A stretch of 64,000 bases of DNA. Source: Pseudothioclava arenosa. GTDB taxonomy: Bacteria; Pseudomonadota; Alphaproteobacteria; Rhodobacterales; Rhodobacteraceae. The position numbers and the translations under genes were made by a program. Numbering within the stretch: the stretch's first letter is position 1; each line of letters opens with the position of its first letter. The stretch covers positions 310,001 to 374,000 of the forward strand of contig NZ_NTJD01000003.1 in assembly GCF_002358085.1 (NCBI RefSeq). Reading direction: 5' to 3'. The notes below the pieces were generated by a model, which did not search any database, was not told the DNA's origin, and worked only from the letters and a program-made list of their open reading frames with translations. Positions 19,530 to 33,038 of the stretch are shown here, piece after piece.

Positions 19530-19606
19530 CGGGGCGTAGCGCAGCCTGGTAGCGCGTCTGTTTTGGGTACAGAAGGTCGTGAGTTCGAATCTCGCCGCCC
19601 CGACCA
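19530..19606 (+). tRNA. tRNA-Pro (anticodon TGG)
   Basis: A complete cloverleaf can be folded: acceptor CGGGGCG/CGCCCCG, D stem GCGC/GCGC, anticodon stem TCTGT/ACAGA with loop TTTGGGT (anticodon TGG), T arm GTGAG-TTCGAAT-CTCGC, and an encoded 3' ACCA. It reads CCA and, with wobble modification, other proline codons. Confidence 0.95.
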
Positions 19607-27755: not shown

Positions 27756-28316
27756 TCAGGCGCCGCGCGGCAGGGCGGCAACGCCGGTGCGTGCCACGTC
27801 CTTGAGGCCCAAGGGGCGCATCAGCTCGGCGAAGGCGTCGATCTTGTCGGGCGTGCCGGTGATTTCGAAGACGAAGCTTTCCAGCGTCGAGTCGACCACA
27901 TTGGCGCGGAAGATCTCGGCAAGGCGCAGCGACTCGATGCGTTTCTCACCCGTCGCGGCCACCTTGAACAGCGCCAGTTCGCGCTCGACCGGCTGCGCCT
28001 CGGTGGTCAGGTCGATGACCTGATGCACCGGCACGATGCGGCCGAGCTGCGCCTTGATCTGGTCGATCACCGCCATCGTGCCGCGCGTCACGATGGTGAT
28101 CCGTGAGCGGTGGCCCTTGTGGTCGACCTCGGCCACGGTGAGGCTGTCGATGTTGTAGCCCCGGCCCGAGAACAGCCCGATCACGCGGGCCAGAACGCCC
28201 GCCTCGTTGTCCACGAGCACCGCCAGCGTGTGCGAGCTTTCCACTTCCGAGTGGAAATCGCGCAGGTCGTAGGCCGAATGGCTGGTGGCGCCTTTCTTGA
28301 TGTTCAGAGCGGCCAT
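27756..28316 (-). CDS. ilvN: Acetolactate synthase, small regulatory subunit
   Basis: The small subunit confers valine feedback control and full activity on acetolactate synthase. Seen in 186 residues: an N-terminal ACT domain with HTLAVLVDNEAGVLARVIGLFSGRGYNIDSLTV, and the C-terminal AHAS-small domain with VHQVIDLT and ERELALFKV. The ATG at 28316 follows AAGGAGAG; a frame to 28394 overlapping ilvB by 4 bp has no comparable site. It follows ilvB (74-bp gap) and shares its attenuator-controlled promoter. This is the IlvH-like long form. Confidence 0.95.
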   Translation of the reverse strand: MAALNIKKGATSHSAYDLRDFHSEVESSHTLAVLVDNEAGVLARVIGLFSGRGYNIDSLTVAEVDHKGHRSRITIVTRGTMAVIDQIKAQLGRIVPVHQVIDLTTEAQPVERELALFKVAATGEKRIESLRLAEIFRANVVDSTLESFVFEITGTPDKIDAFAELMRPLGLKDVARTGVAALPRGA

Positions 28317-28390
28317 TGCCTCTCTCCTTTTCTGCGTCTTCCGACGTGTTCCAGTTCCTGCGGGGGGCGGGCGGGCCGCCCCCGATCCGA

Positions 28391-30136
28391 TCACACGAGC
28401 GCCGCGCCCGACGAGAAGGCCGCAGCATCGGCCGCCAGCAGCATCTCGTTATGCGGCTTGCCCGACGGGATCATCGGGAAGCAGTTCTCGTGCTTCTCGA
28501 CGAGGCAGTCGAACAGCACCGGCCCGTCGTAATTGATCATTTCCATGATCGCATCGTCCAGATCCTTCGGATCGCTGACCGAGATGCCCTTCCAGCCGAA
28601 GCTTTCCGCGAGTTTCACGAAATCGGGCAGGCTGTCGGACCAGCTGTGCGAATAGCGCCCGCCATGCAGCAGGTCTTGCCACTGGCGCACCATGCCGAGG
28701 CGTTCGTTGTTCAGGATGAACTGTTTCACCGGGGTGCAGAACTGGGTCGCGGTGCCCATTTCCTGCATGTTCATCAGCCACGAGGCTTCGCCCGCGACGT
28801 TGATGACCAGCGCGTCCGGGTGCGCGATCTGCACCCCGATCGAGGCCGGGAAGCCATAGCCCATCGTGCCCAGCCCGCCCGAGGTCATCCAGCGGTTCGG
28901 CGCCTCGAAGCCGAGGAATTGCGCGGCCCACATCTGGTGCTGGCCCACTTCGGTGGTGATGTAGCGGTCGCGGTCCTTGGTCAGGGCCTCAAGGCGCTGC
29001 AGCGCGTATTGCGGCTTGATGACCTTGTCCGAGTTGGTGAAGGCGAGGCAGCGCACCTTCTTCCATTCCTCGATCTGGGCCCACCACTTGGCCAGCCCTT
29101 CCTTGTTCACCTTGCGCCCGCGCGCCTTCCAGATCTTCAGCGCGTCTTCGAGAACATGCGCCACGTCGCCCACGATCGGCAGGTCGACGGGAATGATCTT
29201 GTTGATCGAGGAGGCGTCGATATCGACATGCACCTTGGTCGATTTCGGGCTGAAATCGGCGATGCGGCCGGTGATCCGGTCGTCGAACCGCGCGCCGAGG
29301 TTGATCATCAGGTCGCAGCCATGCATCGCGAGGTTGGCCTCGTAGAGACCGTGCATGCCCAGCATCCCGAGCCAGTTCTTGCCCGAGGCCGGATAGGCGC
29401 CAAGCCCCATCAGCGTCGAGGTGATCGGGAAGCCGGTGGCATCGACCAGTTCGCGCATCAGCTGGCTGGCGGCGGTGCCCGAGTTGATGACGCCGCCGCC
29501 AGTGTAGAACACCGGCTTCGCGGCGGTTTCGATCAGCTCGACGAGCTTGGTCACCGCCTCGATGTCGCCCTTCACCTTGGGCTGGTAATGATCGACGCGC
29601 GCGGTTTTCGGCTCGGTATAGCGGCCGTTAGCGAATTGCACGTCTTTCGGCAGGTCGATCAGCACCGGACCGGGGCGACCCGAGGTCGCCACGTGGAACG
29701 CCTGATGGATGGTTTCCGCCAGCTTGTCGGTGTCTTTCACCAGCCAGTTATGCTTGGTGCAGGGGCGGGTGATGCCCACGGTGTCGGCTTCCTGGAAGCC
29801 GTCGGTGCCGATCATGAAGGTCGGCACCTGGCCCGAGAACACCACCAGCGGGATCGAGTCCATCAGCGCGTCGGTCAGGCCGGTGACGGCGTTGGTCGCA
29901 CCCGGGCCCGAGGTCACCAGCGCGCAGCCGGGTTTCCCGGTCGAACGGGCATAGCCCTCGGCCATGTGGATCGCGGCCTGCTCGTGGCGCACGAGGATGT
30001 GCTTGATCTCGTTTTGCTGGAAGATCGCGTCATAGATCGGAAGCACCGCGCCGCCAGGATAGCCGAAAATAACTTCGACCCCGTGGTCCTTGAGCGCCTG
30101 CACCACCATTTCCGCGCCGGTCATCTGCCGTGCCAT
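28391..30136 (-). CDS. ilvB: Acetolactate synthase, large catalytic subunit
   Basis: The TPP-dependent enzyme makes acetolactate (valine, leucine) and acetohydroxybutyrate (isoleucine). Start MARQMTGAEM at 30136 has GGAG seven bases upstream; a longer start at 30148 is possible. Seen: the TPP-activating Glu52 in VRHEQAAIHMAEGYA, SGPGATN, FAD-binding segments near GARFDDRITG, and the C-terminal TPP/Mg site. That site reads GEASWLMNMQEM near residues 443-454, where most homologues have GD in place of GE. Glutamate could still bind magnesium, but it is unusual. 581 residues. The message carries a leader peptide and attenuator. Confidence 0.95.
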   Translation of the reverse strand: MARQMTGAEMVVQALKDHGVEVIFGYPGGAVLPIYDAIFQQNEIKHILVRHEQAAIHMAEGYARSTGKPGCALVTSGPGATNAVTGLTDALMDSIPLVVFSGQVPTFMIGTDGFQEADTVGITRPCTKHNWLVKDTDKLAETIHQAFHVATSGRPGPVLIDLPKDVQFANGRYTEPKTARVDHYQPKVKGDIEAVTKLVELIETAAKPVFYTGGGVINSGTAASQLMRELVDATGFPITSTLMGLGAYPASGKNWLGMLGMHGLYEANLAMHGCDLMINLGARFDDRITGRIADFSPKSTKVHVDIDASSINKIIPVDLPIVGDVAHVLEDALKIWKARGRKVNKEGLAKWWAQIEEWKKVRCLAFTNSDKVIKPQYALQRLEALTKDRDRYITTEVGQHQMWAAQFLGFEAPNRWMTSGGLGTMGYGFPASIGVQIAHPDALVINVAGEASWLMNMQEMGTATQFCTPVKQFILNNERLGMVRQWQDLLHGGRYSHSWSDSLPDFVKLAESFGWKGISVSDPKDLDDAIMEMINYDGPVLFDCLVEKHENCFPMIPSGKPHNEMLLAADAAAFSSGAALV

Positions 30137-30187
30137 GTCTTTCTCCATCCGATCGGTCGCACGCGCGACCCGCCTTCACTTCGCAAC

Positions 30188-30215
30188 AAAAAGCCCTCGC
30201 GTTTTCGGCGAGGGC
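30188..30215 (-). terminator. Attenuator terminator in the ilvB leader
   Basis: Minus strand GCCCTCGC / GCGAGGGC with a 7-base loop, followed by TTTTT, 52 bp upstream of the ilvB start and just downstream of the leader peptide. It can end transcription before ilvB. Confidence 0.85.
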
Positions 30216-30257
30216 GCATGGGAACCATCATGGTCAACCGTTACCGGCCCATGCGCC
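30213..30257 (-). promoter_or_regulatory. Competing antiterminator hairpin of the ilvB leader
   Basis: RNA segment GGCGCATGGG (30257-30248, inside the leader-peptide codons) can pair over 10 bp with CCCATGCGCC (30222-30213). The second arm shares 3 bases with the terminator stem, so the two folds compete. A ribosome stalled early in the leader peptide would leave the first arm free; one reaching the stop codon would cover it. Confidence 0.7.
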
Positions 30258-30288
30258 AACTCCCAACTACGACAAGAATCGCATCCAT
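30241..30288 (-). CDS. ilvB leader peptide (15 aa, Ile-Leu-Val-Val-Val)
   Basis: ATG at 30288 opens MDAILVVVGSWRMGR and stops at TAA. Five consecutive branched-chain codons (ATT CTT GTC GTA GTT) make it a sensor of charged Ile, Leu and Val tRNAs. AGAAGG lies nine bases upstream of the ATG. Together with the terminator at 30188-30215 and the competing hairpin it forms a classical translation-dependent attenuator. Confidence 0.85.
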   Translation of the reverse strand: MDAILVVVGSWRMGR

Positions 30289-30319
30289 CTCGGTGCCTTC
30301 TGAATTTGCGTTGCGGCGG

Positions 30320-30348
30320 ACATTATGTGCCGGGGCAGGGGGCGTCAA
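30320..30348 (-). promoter_or_regulatory. ilvB promoter
   Basis: Minus strand TTGACG (30348-30343), 17-bp spacer, TAATGT (30325-30320); a start near 30312 would place the leader peptide ATG about 25 bases into the message. Confidence 0.7.
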
Positions 30349-30711: not shown

Positions 30712-31281
30712 ATGGGGGCGTTGATTACCCTCTCGCGCCTGATTGACCGGATTACCGAAGTGATCGGAAAGAGCGTCTCGTGGCTCATTCTGGTTTCGGT
30801 GCTGGTCTCGGCCGCGAATGCCACTATCCGCAAGGTGTTCAACACATCGTCGAACGCCTGGCTTGAACTGCAATGGTATCTGTTCGGCGCGGCGTTCCTG
30901 CTCGCGGCGGCCTATACGCTGAAGCAGAATGAACATATCCGCATCGACATCGTCTATGGCGCGTTCTCGCGTAAGGTGCAGCACTGGATCGACCTGTTTG
31001 GGCATGTCGTTTTCCTGATGCCCTTCGTGGTGCTGATGCTTTGGCTGCTGGGCCCCTATGTCACCAAGTCGGTGATCTCGGGCGAGGTTTCGACCAACGC
31101 GGGCGGGCTGATCATCTGGCCAGCCAAGGCGCTGCTACTGGCGGGCTTCTCCTTGCTGTTCGCGCAAGGGGTCTCCGAGATCATCAAGAAGATCGCAGTG
31201 ATGCGCGGGCTGATCGAAGACCCCCATCCGCAGACCGGGCATCATGGTCATGACATGATCGCCGAAGAGGAGGCGCTGTGA
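30712..31281 (+). CDS. TRAP transporter small membrane subunit (DctQ/TakQ type)
   Basis: TRAP transporters use a soluble binding protein and the ion gradient to import organic acids; this is the small four-helix subunit. Seen in 189 residues: four hydrophobic helices (about 22-42, 52-70, 93-113, 134-158), the conserved ELQWYLFGAAFLLAAAYTLKQNEHIRIDIVYG segment read in parts, and a His-rich tail near HPQTGHHGHDM. Strong GGGGAGGAG before the ATG. The large subunit follows with a 4-bp overlap. The matching binding protein may be the convergent TakP-like gene at 33693-34796. Confidence 0.92.
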   Translation: MGALITLSRLIDRITEVIGKSVSWLILVSVLVSAANATIRKVFNTSSNAWLELQWYLFGAAFLLAAAYTLKQNEHIRIDIVYGAFSRKVQHWIDLFGHVVFLMPFVVLMLWLLGPYVTKSVISGEVSTNAGGLIIWPAKALLLAGFSLLFAQGVSEIIKKIAVMRGLIEDPHPQTGHHGHDMIAEEEAL

Positions 31282-33038
31282 TGATGGAGCTCATCGCACA
31301 GAACATGGCGCCGATCATGTTTGTCTCGCTGATCGTGTTCCTGCTGCTGGGCTATCCGGTGGCGTTCTCGCTTGCGGCGAACGGCCTGCTGTTCTTCATC
31401 ATCGGGGTCGAACTCGCGCCGCTTTCCAATGGCTCGATCTTCCTCGACTGGGCGCTTCTGGGGTCGTTGCCCGACCGCTTCTGGGGGGTGTTGAGTAACG
31501 ACACGCTTCTGGCCATTCCATTCTTCACCTTCATGGGGATCGTGCTGGAGAAATCCGGCATGGCCGAAGACCTTCTCGACACGATCGGCCAGCTCTTTGG
31601 CCCGGTGCGCGGCGGTCTGGCCTATGCGGTGATCATCGTGGGCGCGCTTCTGGCGGCGACCACGGGGGTGGTTGCGGCCTCGGTGATCGCGATGGGGCTG
31701 ATCTCGCTGCCGATCATGCTGCGCTATGGCTATGACCGGCGGATCGCCTCGGGCGTCATTGCCGCCTCGGGGACGCTGGCGCAGATCATCCCGCCGTCCC
31801 TCGTGCTGATCGTTCTGGCCGACCAGCTCGGCCGTTCGGTGGGCGACATGTACAAGGGCGCGCTGATCCCGGGACTGGTGCTGACCGGCATCTACCTCGG
31901 CTATGTCGCGCTGATGTCGATCCTCAAGCCCAAGTCCATGCCCGCCCTGCCGCTTGAGGCGCGCACGCTGGGCTCGGGGGTGATGTCGCTGTTCGTCGCG
32001 CTGGGCGTGACGGTGGGGGTGTTCATCTTTGCCGAACGCTGGCTCGAAGCGAACCACGATCCGAACGACGCGGGCATCCTGGCTGCGGCGCTGGCGGTGA
32101 TCCTGGTTTACACGGCGGCGGTGCTCGACAAGACGCTGAAGACCAATGTGATGAGCCGGCTGACGCAGCAGGTGATCATCGTGCTGATCCCGCCGCTGGC
32201 GCTGATCTTCCTCGTGCTCGGCACGATCTTCCTCGGCGTTGCGACGCCGACCGAAGGCGGTGCGATGGGTGCTGTGGGTGCGCTGTTCCTGTCGGCGGTG
32301 AAACGGCGGCTGAGCTTCCCGGTGGTGCGTGATGCGCTGGCGGCGACGACGCGGCTCTCGGCCTTCGTGCTGTTCATCCTGATCGGGGCGCGGGTGTTCT
32401 CGCTGACCTTCTACGGCGTGAACGGGCATCTCTGGGTCGAGCATCTGCTGACCTCGCTGCCGGGCGGCGAGATGGGCTTCCTGATAGTGGTGTCGCTGCT
32501 GGTCTTCTTCCTCGCCTTCTTCCTCGATTTCTTCGAACTGGCCTTCATCATCGTGCCGCTTCTCGCGCCTGCCGCGGAAAGCCTTGGCATCGACCTGATC
32601 TGGTTCGGGGTGATCCTGGGGGTGAACATGCAGACCTCGTTCATGCACCCGCCCTTCGGCTTCGCGCTGTTCTTCCTGCGCTCGGTGGCGCCCAAGTCGC
32701 CCTATGTCGACAAGCTGACGGGCAAGACGATGGAGCCGGTGAAGACCTCGCAGATCTACTGGGGGGCGGTGCCCTTCGTCTTCATCCAGATCATCATGAT
32801 CGGCATCGTGATCGCCTTCCCCGGAATGGTGATGCATTACAAGGGGCCGGTCGTCGATGTGTCGAATGTCGAGATGAAGCTGCCGCAGATGCCGGGCTTC
32901 GGTGCGCCGGGCGGTGGCGGCGGCCTCGCCCTGCCGAACTTCGGCGGAGCCGCGCCGGGCGCGGCCCCGGGTGGAGCGCCAGCGGCGCCTGCCGCACCGG
33001 GCGGCCTGCCGCTGCCGAATTACGGCGGCAGCAACTGA
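31278..33038 (+). CDS. TRAP transporter large membrane subunit (DctM/TakM type) with low-complexity tail
   Basis: The large subunit is the ion-coupled transport channel. Seen in 586 residues: over a dozen hydrophobic helices, GIVLEKSGMAEDLLDTIGQ, IPPSLVLIVLADQLGRSVGDMYKGALIPG and GVATPTEGGAMGAVGAL, all conserved DctM features. The C-terminal 50 residues (about 537-586) are Gly/Ala/Pro-rich with repeated LPNFGG / LPNYGG, an unusual addition of unknown use. It starts with GTG-ATG-ATG overlapping the small-subunit stop by 4 bp, so exact start choice does not change the frame. Confidence 0.93.
   Translation: MMMELIAQNMAPIMFVSLIVFLLLGYPVAFSLAANGLLFFIIGVELAPLSNGSIFLDWALLGSLPDRFWGVLSNDTLLAIPFFTFMGIVLEKSGMAEDLLDTIGQLFGPVRGGLAYAVIIVGALLAATTGVVAASVIAMGLISLPIMLRYGYDRRIASGVIAASGTLAQIIPPSLVLIVLADQLGRSVGDMYKGALIPGLVLTGIYLGYVALMSILKPKSMPALPLEARTLGSGVMSLFVALGVTVGVFIFAERWLEANHDPNDAGILAAALAVILVYTAAVLDKTLKTNVMSRLTQQVIIVLIPPLALIFLVLGTIFLGVATPTEGGAMGAVGALFLSAVKRRLSFPVVRDALAATTRLSAFVLFILIGARVFSLTFYGVNGHLWVEHLLTSLPGGEMGFLIVVSLLVFFLAFFLDFFELAFIIVPLLAPAAESLGIDLIWFGVILGVNMQTSFMHPPFGFALFFLRSVAPKSPYVDKLTGKTMEPVKTSQIYWGAVPFVFIQIIMIGIVIAFPGMVMHYKGPVVDVSNVEMKLPQMPGFGAPGGGGGLALPNFGGAAPGAAPGGAPAAPAAPGGLPLPNYGGSN

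Follow-up and report, generated by a model that had tools for sequence, protein, structure and literature searches.

Transcription attenuation and its use at ilv operons are already known. Among alphaproteobacteria, attenuation of ilvBN has been described in Caulobacter (Tarleton et al., 1994, cited in PMC4117421) and leaders of ilvB and ilvIH have been predicted (Vitreschak et al., 2004, cited in PMC1273637 and PMC2573895), and both studies are considered here as they are represented in the citing articles. Theory holds that the control codons of such leaders should match the isoacceptors whose charging is most sensitive to starvation, the best Leu codon in Escherichia coli being CUA (PMC1183508). 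Here, the region upstream of ilvBN in Pseudothioclava arenosa is analyzed within a 64-kb window, the whole stretch of DNA that was studied, and compared with ilvB loci of relatives. We are highly confident that a ribosome-mediated transcription attenuator controls these genes, a regulatory role that is predicted from sequence, and the switch would very probably restrict synthesis of branched-chain amino acids to times when the cell is short of them.

Organization of the ilvBN leader

The original prediction had placed a promoter, a short leader peptide with branched-chain control codons, two antiterminator arms and an intrinsic terminator on the minus strand, and on re-reading every one of these elements was located at its predicted coordinates (Table 1), as were the three bases, GCC, said to be common to arm 2 and the terminator. 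The arms pair perfectly over 10 bp (30257-30248 with 30222-30213), and the terminator was recovered by a separate detection as well. The layout had been described as consisting of two hairpins, however, and here the description has to be amended, since a small third hairpin, which covaries among relatives, surrounds the leader stop codon and is nested between the two arms.

Matches to NCBIfam models identify ilvB and ilvN as the genes directly downstream of the attenuator. The large subunit of acetolactate synthase is the single one found in the genome by the search used, and shares 91% identity with IlvB of Sedimentimonas flavescens and 90% with that of Rhodobacter viridis. The plus strand at 30712-33038, divergent to ilvB, carries the large permease of a DctM-type TRAP transporter (TIGR00786) together with a short ORF. 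The leader region has no Rfam match at Rfam thresholds; the sole match in the window at the gathering threshold is a tRNA gene at 19530-19603 (plus strand).

Table 1. Features of the P. arenosa ilvBN leader and its genes (window positions), with the related leader loci upstream of transporter genes (locus positions).
Feature	Position	Strand	Basis
Promoter: TTGACG (30348-30343), 17-nt spacer, TAATGT (30325-30320)	30320-30348	minus	direct sequence reading
Shine-Dalgarno-like AGAAGG of the leader peptide	30296-30301	minus	direct reading
Leader peptide MDAILVVVGSWRMGR and stop, ATG 30288 to TAA 30241, 15 codons	30241-30288	minus	direct reading
Control codons ATT CTT GTC GTA GTT (Ile Leu Val Val Val), leader codons 4-8	30265-30279	minus	
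Antiterminator arm 1, GGCGCATGGG, within leader codons	30248-30257	minus	direct reading and fold
Stop-codon hairpin CCG-GUAA-CGG, nested between antiterminator arms	30238-30247	minus	fold and covariation
Antiterminator arm 2, CCCATGCGCC	30213-30222	minus	direct reading and fold
Intrinsic terminator GCCCTCGC-N7-GCGAGGGC (30215-30193), then TTTTT (30192-30188)	30188-30215	minus	
ilvB, acetolactate synthase large subunit (alternative upstream ATG at 30148 possible)	28391-30136	minus	NCBIfam NF006581, 1114.6 bits
ilvN, acetolactate synthase small subunit (coordinates of the open frame, with translation probably starting close to 28316)	27756-28394	minus	NCBIfam NF008864/TIGR00119
MFS-leader loci L131, L152-L156	around 1500-1620 of the locus		
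MFS-leader loci L336-L338, L344-L350			

Conservation among ilvB loci

Upstream regions of ilvB were sampled from 130 genomes of the family (Rhodobacteraceae) and from 79 named genomes, and were given a combined score for a leader ORF with a run of branched-chain codons, antiterminator-like pairing that reaches the terminator, and the terminator itself, with a cut-off of ≥50. By this score the complete device is present in 114 of the 130 family loci and in 77/79 of the named-genome loci. The cut-off was reached by 64% of 294 ilvB upstream regions, a set in which about 84 regions come from alphaproteobacteria other than Rhodobacteraceae and are almost all negative, as against 0 of 882 dinucleotide shuffles. 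Most family loci that fail the score are not simply empty, and six (L089, L109, L110, L123, L126, and L130) hold a leader, helix and terminator with different arms that fall below the numeric cut; on inspection, neither leader nor terminator was seen near ilvB in L106 and L098.

The individual elements are retained to a similar degree. All but one of 183 loci have a TTGAC sequence 43-82 nt (mostly 54-60) 5′ of the leader start, in most cases with TAATGT or a close variant after it at a spacing of 17, and a Shine-Dalgarno-like sequence precedes the leader in 170/184 relatives. The start, stop and Shine-Dalgarno sequence of the leader are kept, and the 15-aa frame ending in RMGR is kept in most of the 130 family loci. 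The stop codon and the terminator are separated by 26-32 nt in each of the 183 loci, so that the terminator would be free with a ribosome at the stop. The ilvBN leader is a genuine, strongly conserved switch of known type, and provides a family-wide, testable ilvB attenuator where Rfam has none, with more than 180 natural variants that show the tolerance of the mechanism.

Outside this family, the exact CGCATGGG/CCCATGCG hairpin of the arms was not detected beside ilvB in the sample of the alphaproteobacterial class. Exact matches to the hairpin elsewhere in the class were mostly palindromes with no IlvB match nearby, and were set aside. A conserved "uORF" containing RRYAKRQMTWFRHQ upstream of ilvB in other alphaproteobacteria (L240-L326) was likewise dropped, as it is presumably the C-terminal end of MiaA, whose gene we take to lie ahead of ilvB in many of these bacteria. 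Because this presumed MiaA tail looks like a leader peptide, scans for uORFs could be misled by it.

Control codons as the putative sensor

When the leader codons of 184 loci are numbered by alignment on arm 1, Ile, Leu, and Val together account for 96, 99, 95, 93, and 88% of residues at codons -8 to -4, and for 16% or less at every other position. These control codons are tandem and stand at a fixed distance before arm 1, and all three amino acids are represented in 157 of the leaders. Codon choice within the leader differs markedly from that of ilvB, with CTA (34% vs. 1%), GTA (55% vs. 4%), and ATT (49% vs. 11%) enriched, and CTG (6% vs. 65%) and GTG (9% vs. 53%) depleted. Rare codons are thus favored in the leader relative to ilvB, and attenuation theory predicts a preference for control codons with charging-sensitive isoacceptors (PMC1183508). 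Part of the bias could also stem from avoidance of unwanted RNA pairing. The rare control codons represent a natural test of selective tRNA charging beyond the gammaproteobacteria.

Helices and covariation

The original prediction had proposed asking whether the antiterminator arms covary in relatives, and the answer is mixed. The canonical arms (CGCATGGG/CCCATGCG) are nearly invariant across 105 loci, with a double change at two pairs, and because they hardly vary, covariation there is weak and uninformative. About eight divergent loci (L061, L070, L089, L109, L110, L123, L126, and L130) possess arms that are wholly different yet complementary to each other, such as GCGCAGTCGC/GCGACTGCGC (L061) and GCGCTTG/CAAGCGC (L123 and L130). 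In addition, codon -1 has G at its third position in 181/182 loci although the amino acid varies; this G pairs with a base common to the terminator, which shows selection for a pair that shares a terminator base. The codon -1 position and the complementary divergent arms lend support to the predicted antiterminator helix.

Among relatives, both sides have changed at five of the eight terminator pairs. The stop-codon hairpin covaries too (9 double-change cells vs. 1.4 in shuffles, 0/500), the signal collapses when the pairing is slid, and the hairpin is larger in divergent loci, such as CAGATGTGAGAAACATCTG in L130. By analogy, it likely plays the polymerase-pausing role of the first hairpin in classical attenuators. 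An extension of the antiterminator helix (GAG at 30262-30260 with CUC at 30212-30210) was rejected as a conserved feature after a test for coevolution, in which matched pairs folded no better than swapped ones and 841 of 2000 permutations were as good or better.

Possible mutual exclusion of antiterminator and terminator

The folding energy of the antiterminator helix is -25.0 kcal/mol, compared with -15.4 kcal/mol for the terminator. In a model that assumes a ribosome footprint of ∼13 nt ahead of the A-site codon, the mean probability of the antiterminator helix is 0.85-0.89 while codons -8 to -4 are occupied and 0 from codon -2 on, in agreement with the original model. Equilibrium folding of the whole leader was discarded as an exclusion test, because the probability of the terminator was high throughout even for the E. 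coli trp, his, thr, leu, ilv, and ilvBN attenuators; since it did not discriminate, folding of the RNA made before the 3′ arm of the terminator was used instead. In such pre-terminator RNA of the six E. coli controls, a ribosome at the control codons leaves ∼5-9 nt of the terminator 5′ arm sequestered; with the ribosome at the stop the value is ∼0 nt for trp, leu, thr, and ilv, ∼1 for ivbL, and 3.6 for his. The canonical leaders sequester on average 4.4, 3.4, 2.8, 2.5, and 0.3 nt along the five control codons and ∼2 at the stop, and the P. arenosa locus 6.7, 5.0, 3.9, 3.0, and 1.1 nt, with 4.0 at the stop.

The proposal that antiterminator and terminator exclude each other is supported in part, in that the two overlap by 2-3 nt in 177 of 183 canonical loci; it is qualified by the complete lack of overlap in some divergent loci and by sequestration below that of E. 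coli. Any mutual exclusion would be weaker than in the E. coli attenuators, and it may be that very little overlap is required or that a helix needs only to abut the terminator. The latter would be the same attenuator operating in a different manner, in which the stable helix lies against the 5′ base of the terminator and blocks its last pairs at the polymerase exit channel, such that overlap would be unneeded. Besides the small size of the canonical overlap, this arrangement is suggested by seven divergent loci (L061, L089, L105, L109, L123, L124, and L130) in which the helix ends ∼1-4 nt short of the terminator with no base in common, and by the last control codon, which specifies a branched-chain amino acid in 88% of leaders yet is a position at which almost no terminator bases are sequestered. 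The almost universal G at codon -1 points instead to selection for the shared base, and a small overlap can be adequate, given that the first two G:C pairs of the switch helix in a Mn riboswitch suppress strand invasion by the terminator (PMC11087558). The argument for abutment is one of geometry only, and we regard abutment as rather unlikely. The near absence of overlap poses the concrete question of how little competition an attenuator needs.

Proposed mechanism

The original interpretation of this region, a branched-chain amino acid attenuator of ilvBN, draws very strong comparative support from the conserved control codons, their codon bias, the arms, the terminator, the promoter, and the stop-to-terminator distance. 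Based on these parts and their conservation, together with the observed pairing and computed folding energies, a course of events can be proposed in which stalling, termination, readthrough, and the direction of the response are predictions. RNA polymerase would start from the TTGACG/TAATGT promoter and a ribosome would begin the 15-codon leader. If charged Ile-, Leu- or Val-tRNA were scarce, the ribosome would stall at codons 4-8, leaving arm 1, which starts about three codons downstream, free to pair with arm 2 (about -25 kcal/mol). The antiterminator would form ahead of transcription of the terminator 3′ arm and hold 2-3 bases at the base of the terminator stem, and it is proposed that polymerase consequently reads on into ilvBN. 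If the amino acids were plentiful, the ribosome would reach the UAA, melt the stop-codon hairpin and cover arm 1, whereupon the terminator (-15.4 kcal/mol) would form and transcription would end near 30188.

The near invariance of the arms would also be explained if the released leader RNA or peptide acted in trans as well, as has been reported for the trp attenuator RNA rnTrpL and the peptide peTrpL of Sinorhizobium meliloti (PMC10117765). Consistent with this analogy, the arm core is almost invariant in the 105 family loci, the Arg codon at +0 is CGC in 174/184 loci despite the synonymous choice available, and a related RNA, Atu_C8, is filed in Rfam as an sRNA. Divergent family members, however, replace the arms entirely, and the combined demands of coding, pairing and terminator overlap can yield invariance, such that an additional trans activity seems improbable. 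That the leader ORF is incidental, and the element a metabolite riboswitch or an ordinary constitutive terminator, is highly implausible: a terminator precedes the gene, as in riboswitches, but there is no match to any Rfam riboswitch, and the sole conserved feature outside the helices is the in-frame block of branched-chain codons, in a leader whose start, stop and Shine-Dalgarno sequence are retained.

A related leader upstream of an MFS transporter gene

The attenuator favored here for ilvBN appears to have relatives at a second gene. When compared with the Rfam family RF02502 (Atu_C8), the P. arenosa leader gives a full-length yet weak match (24.3 bits, E ∼0.004), below the gathering score of 50, and the alignment includes both the core helix GCGCAUGGGC/CCCAUGCGC and a leader-like 5′ part. 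In one alphaproteobacterial family, which may be Rhizobiales-like judging from the Rfam title only, all six of the Atu_C8 RNAs above the cut-off hold a Val-rich leader, such as MNGLLTIVVVGRRMGEAA, and each is located just 5′ of a gene for a Bcr/CflA-family MFS transporter. In the one family checked, Atu_C8 is this MFS leader.

A covariance model built from 105 ilvB leaders matches 56/61 genomes of the order and, in a sample of 385 taken outside the family, 10 genomes that represent nine families. All ten of these outside matches are directly upstream of a gene whose product is 45-60% identical to the MFS protein, and none is at ilvB. Their leaders include MNPKSVVVVVSRRCMVR, MTVTTVVVGAWRLDR, and MNTGVVLVGSRRMDR, and many keep the CCGGTAACGG stop hairpin. 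Some Rhodobacteraceae orthologs of the transporter gene have such leaders (L351, with MITVVVVVMRERRVDR, L355, and L381); in L360 a hairpin and terminator precede the MFS gene and the leader candidate is weak. Genome G491 contains both a strong match to the ilvB-leader model and a second, weaker one at the MFS gene (L381). Fourteen hand-picked MFS leader peptides contain 52 Val, 12 Ile, and 11 Leu residues. Judged by sequence, at least nine other families of alphaproteobacteria, as well as some Rhodobacteraceae, have a homologous Val-rich leader 5′ of the MFS gene.

In the MFS leaders of L336, L338, and L349, arm 1 has lost pairing positions (RLD or RPG in place of RMG) and arm 2 retains CCCATGCGCC, so that arm 2 looks more conserved than pairing alone requires.

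The evidence tips slightly toward a single attenuator lineage serving two unrelated genes, ilvBN in Rhodobacteraceae and the Bcr/CflA-family MFS transporter in many other families and in some Rhodobacteraceae. In this lineage the leader would be rich in Val, and contact between antiterminator and terminator would be more a matter of abutment than of overlap. If so, the Atu_C8 "sRNA" would be the terminated leader of a transporter gene, and the protein, more than a generic drug pump, would respond to valine supply or to slowed translation. Were the MFS leaders attenuators, the transporter would be induced when Val is limiting or when translation is slowed in any way, including by drugs. Its presence at this gene points to a possible function for an Rfam family classed as sRNA, and to a possible physiological role for a transporter commonly annotated as drug efflux.

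Comparison with known systems

Descriptions of the small overlap, the stop-codon hairpin and the link to a transporter were not found in the literature searched. The closest counterparts are the alphaproteobacterial ilvIH and ilvBN attenuators, which, as far as the accounts in the citing articles go and by description rather than sequence, share an acetolactate synthase operon, a leader with branched-chain codons, a terminator before the first gene and proposed ribosome stalling. The ivbL-ilvBN and ilvL-ilvGMEDA systems of E. coli likewise combine a leader rich in branched-chain residues, an antiterminator formed from sequence in or after the leader, and an intrinsic terminator; their leaders are 32 aa in length, compared with 15 here, and ∼6-9 nt of the terminator 5′ arm are taken up at the control codons, whereas in the present leaders the direct overlap is 2-3 nt and ∼4 nt are sequestered on average in folding. 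The uORFC-8-2 motif, a cysS attenuator of the Rhodobacterales (PMC8632094), resembles the ilvBN leader in having a short uORF in which codons for the amino acid being sensed stand in tandem, and in occurring in the same order, but has Cys codons, precedes cysS, and is a separate RNA. Atu_C8, the "Rhizobiales sRNA" of Rfam, has the GCGCAUGGGC/CCCAUGCGC helix in common with the ilvBN leader, as well as a leader peptide rich in Val that ends in RMG, and differs in that, in the family checked, it lies upstream of the MFS gene rather than ilvB.
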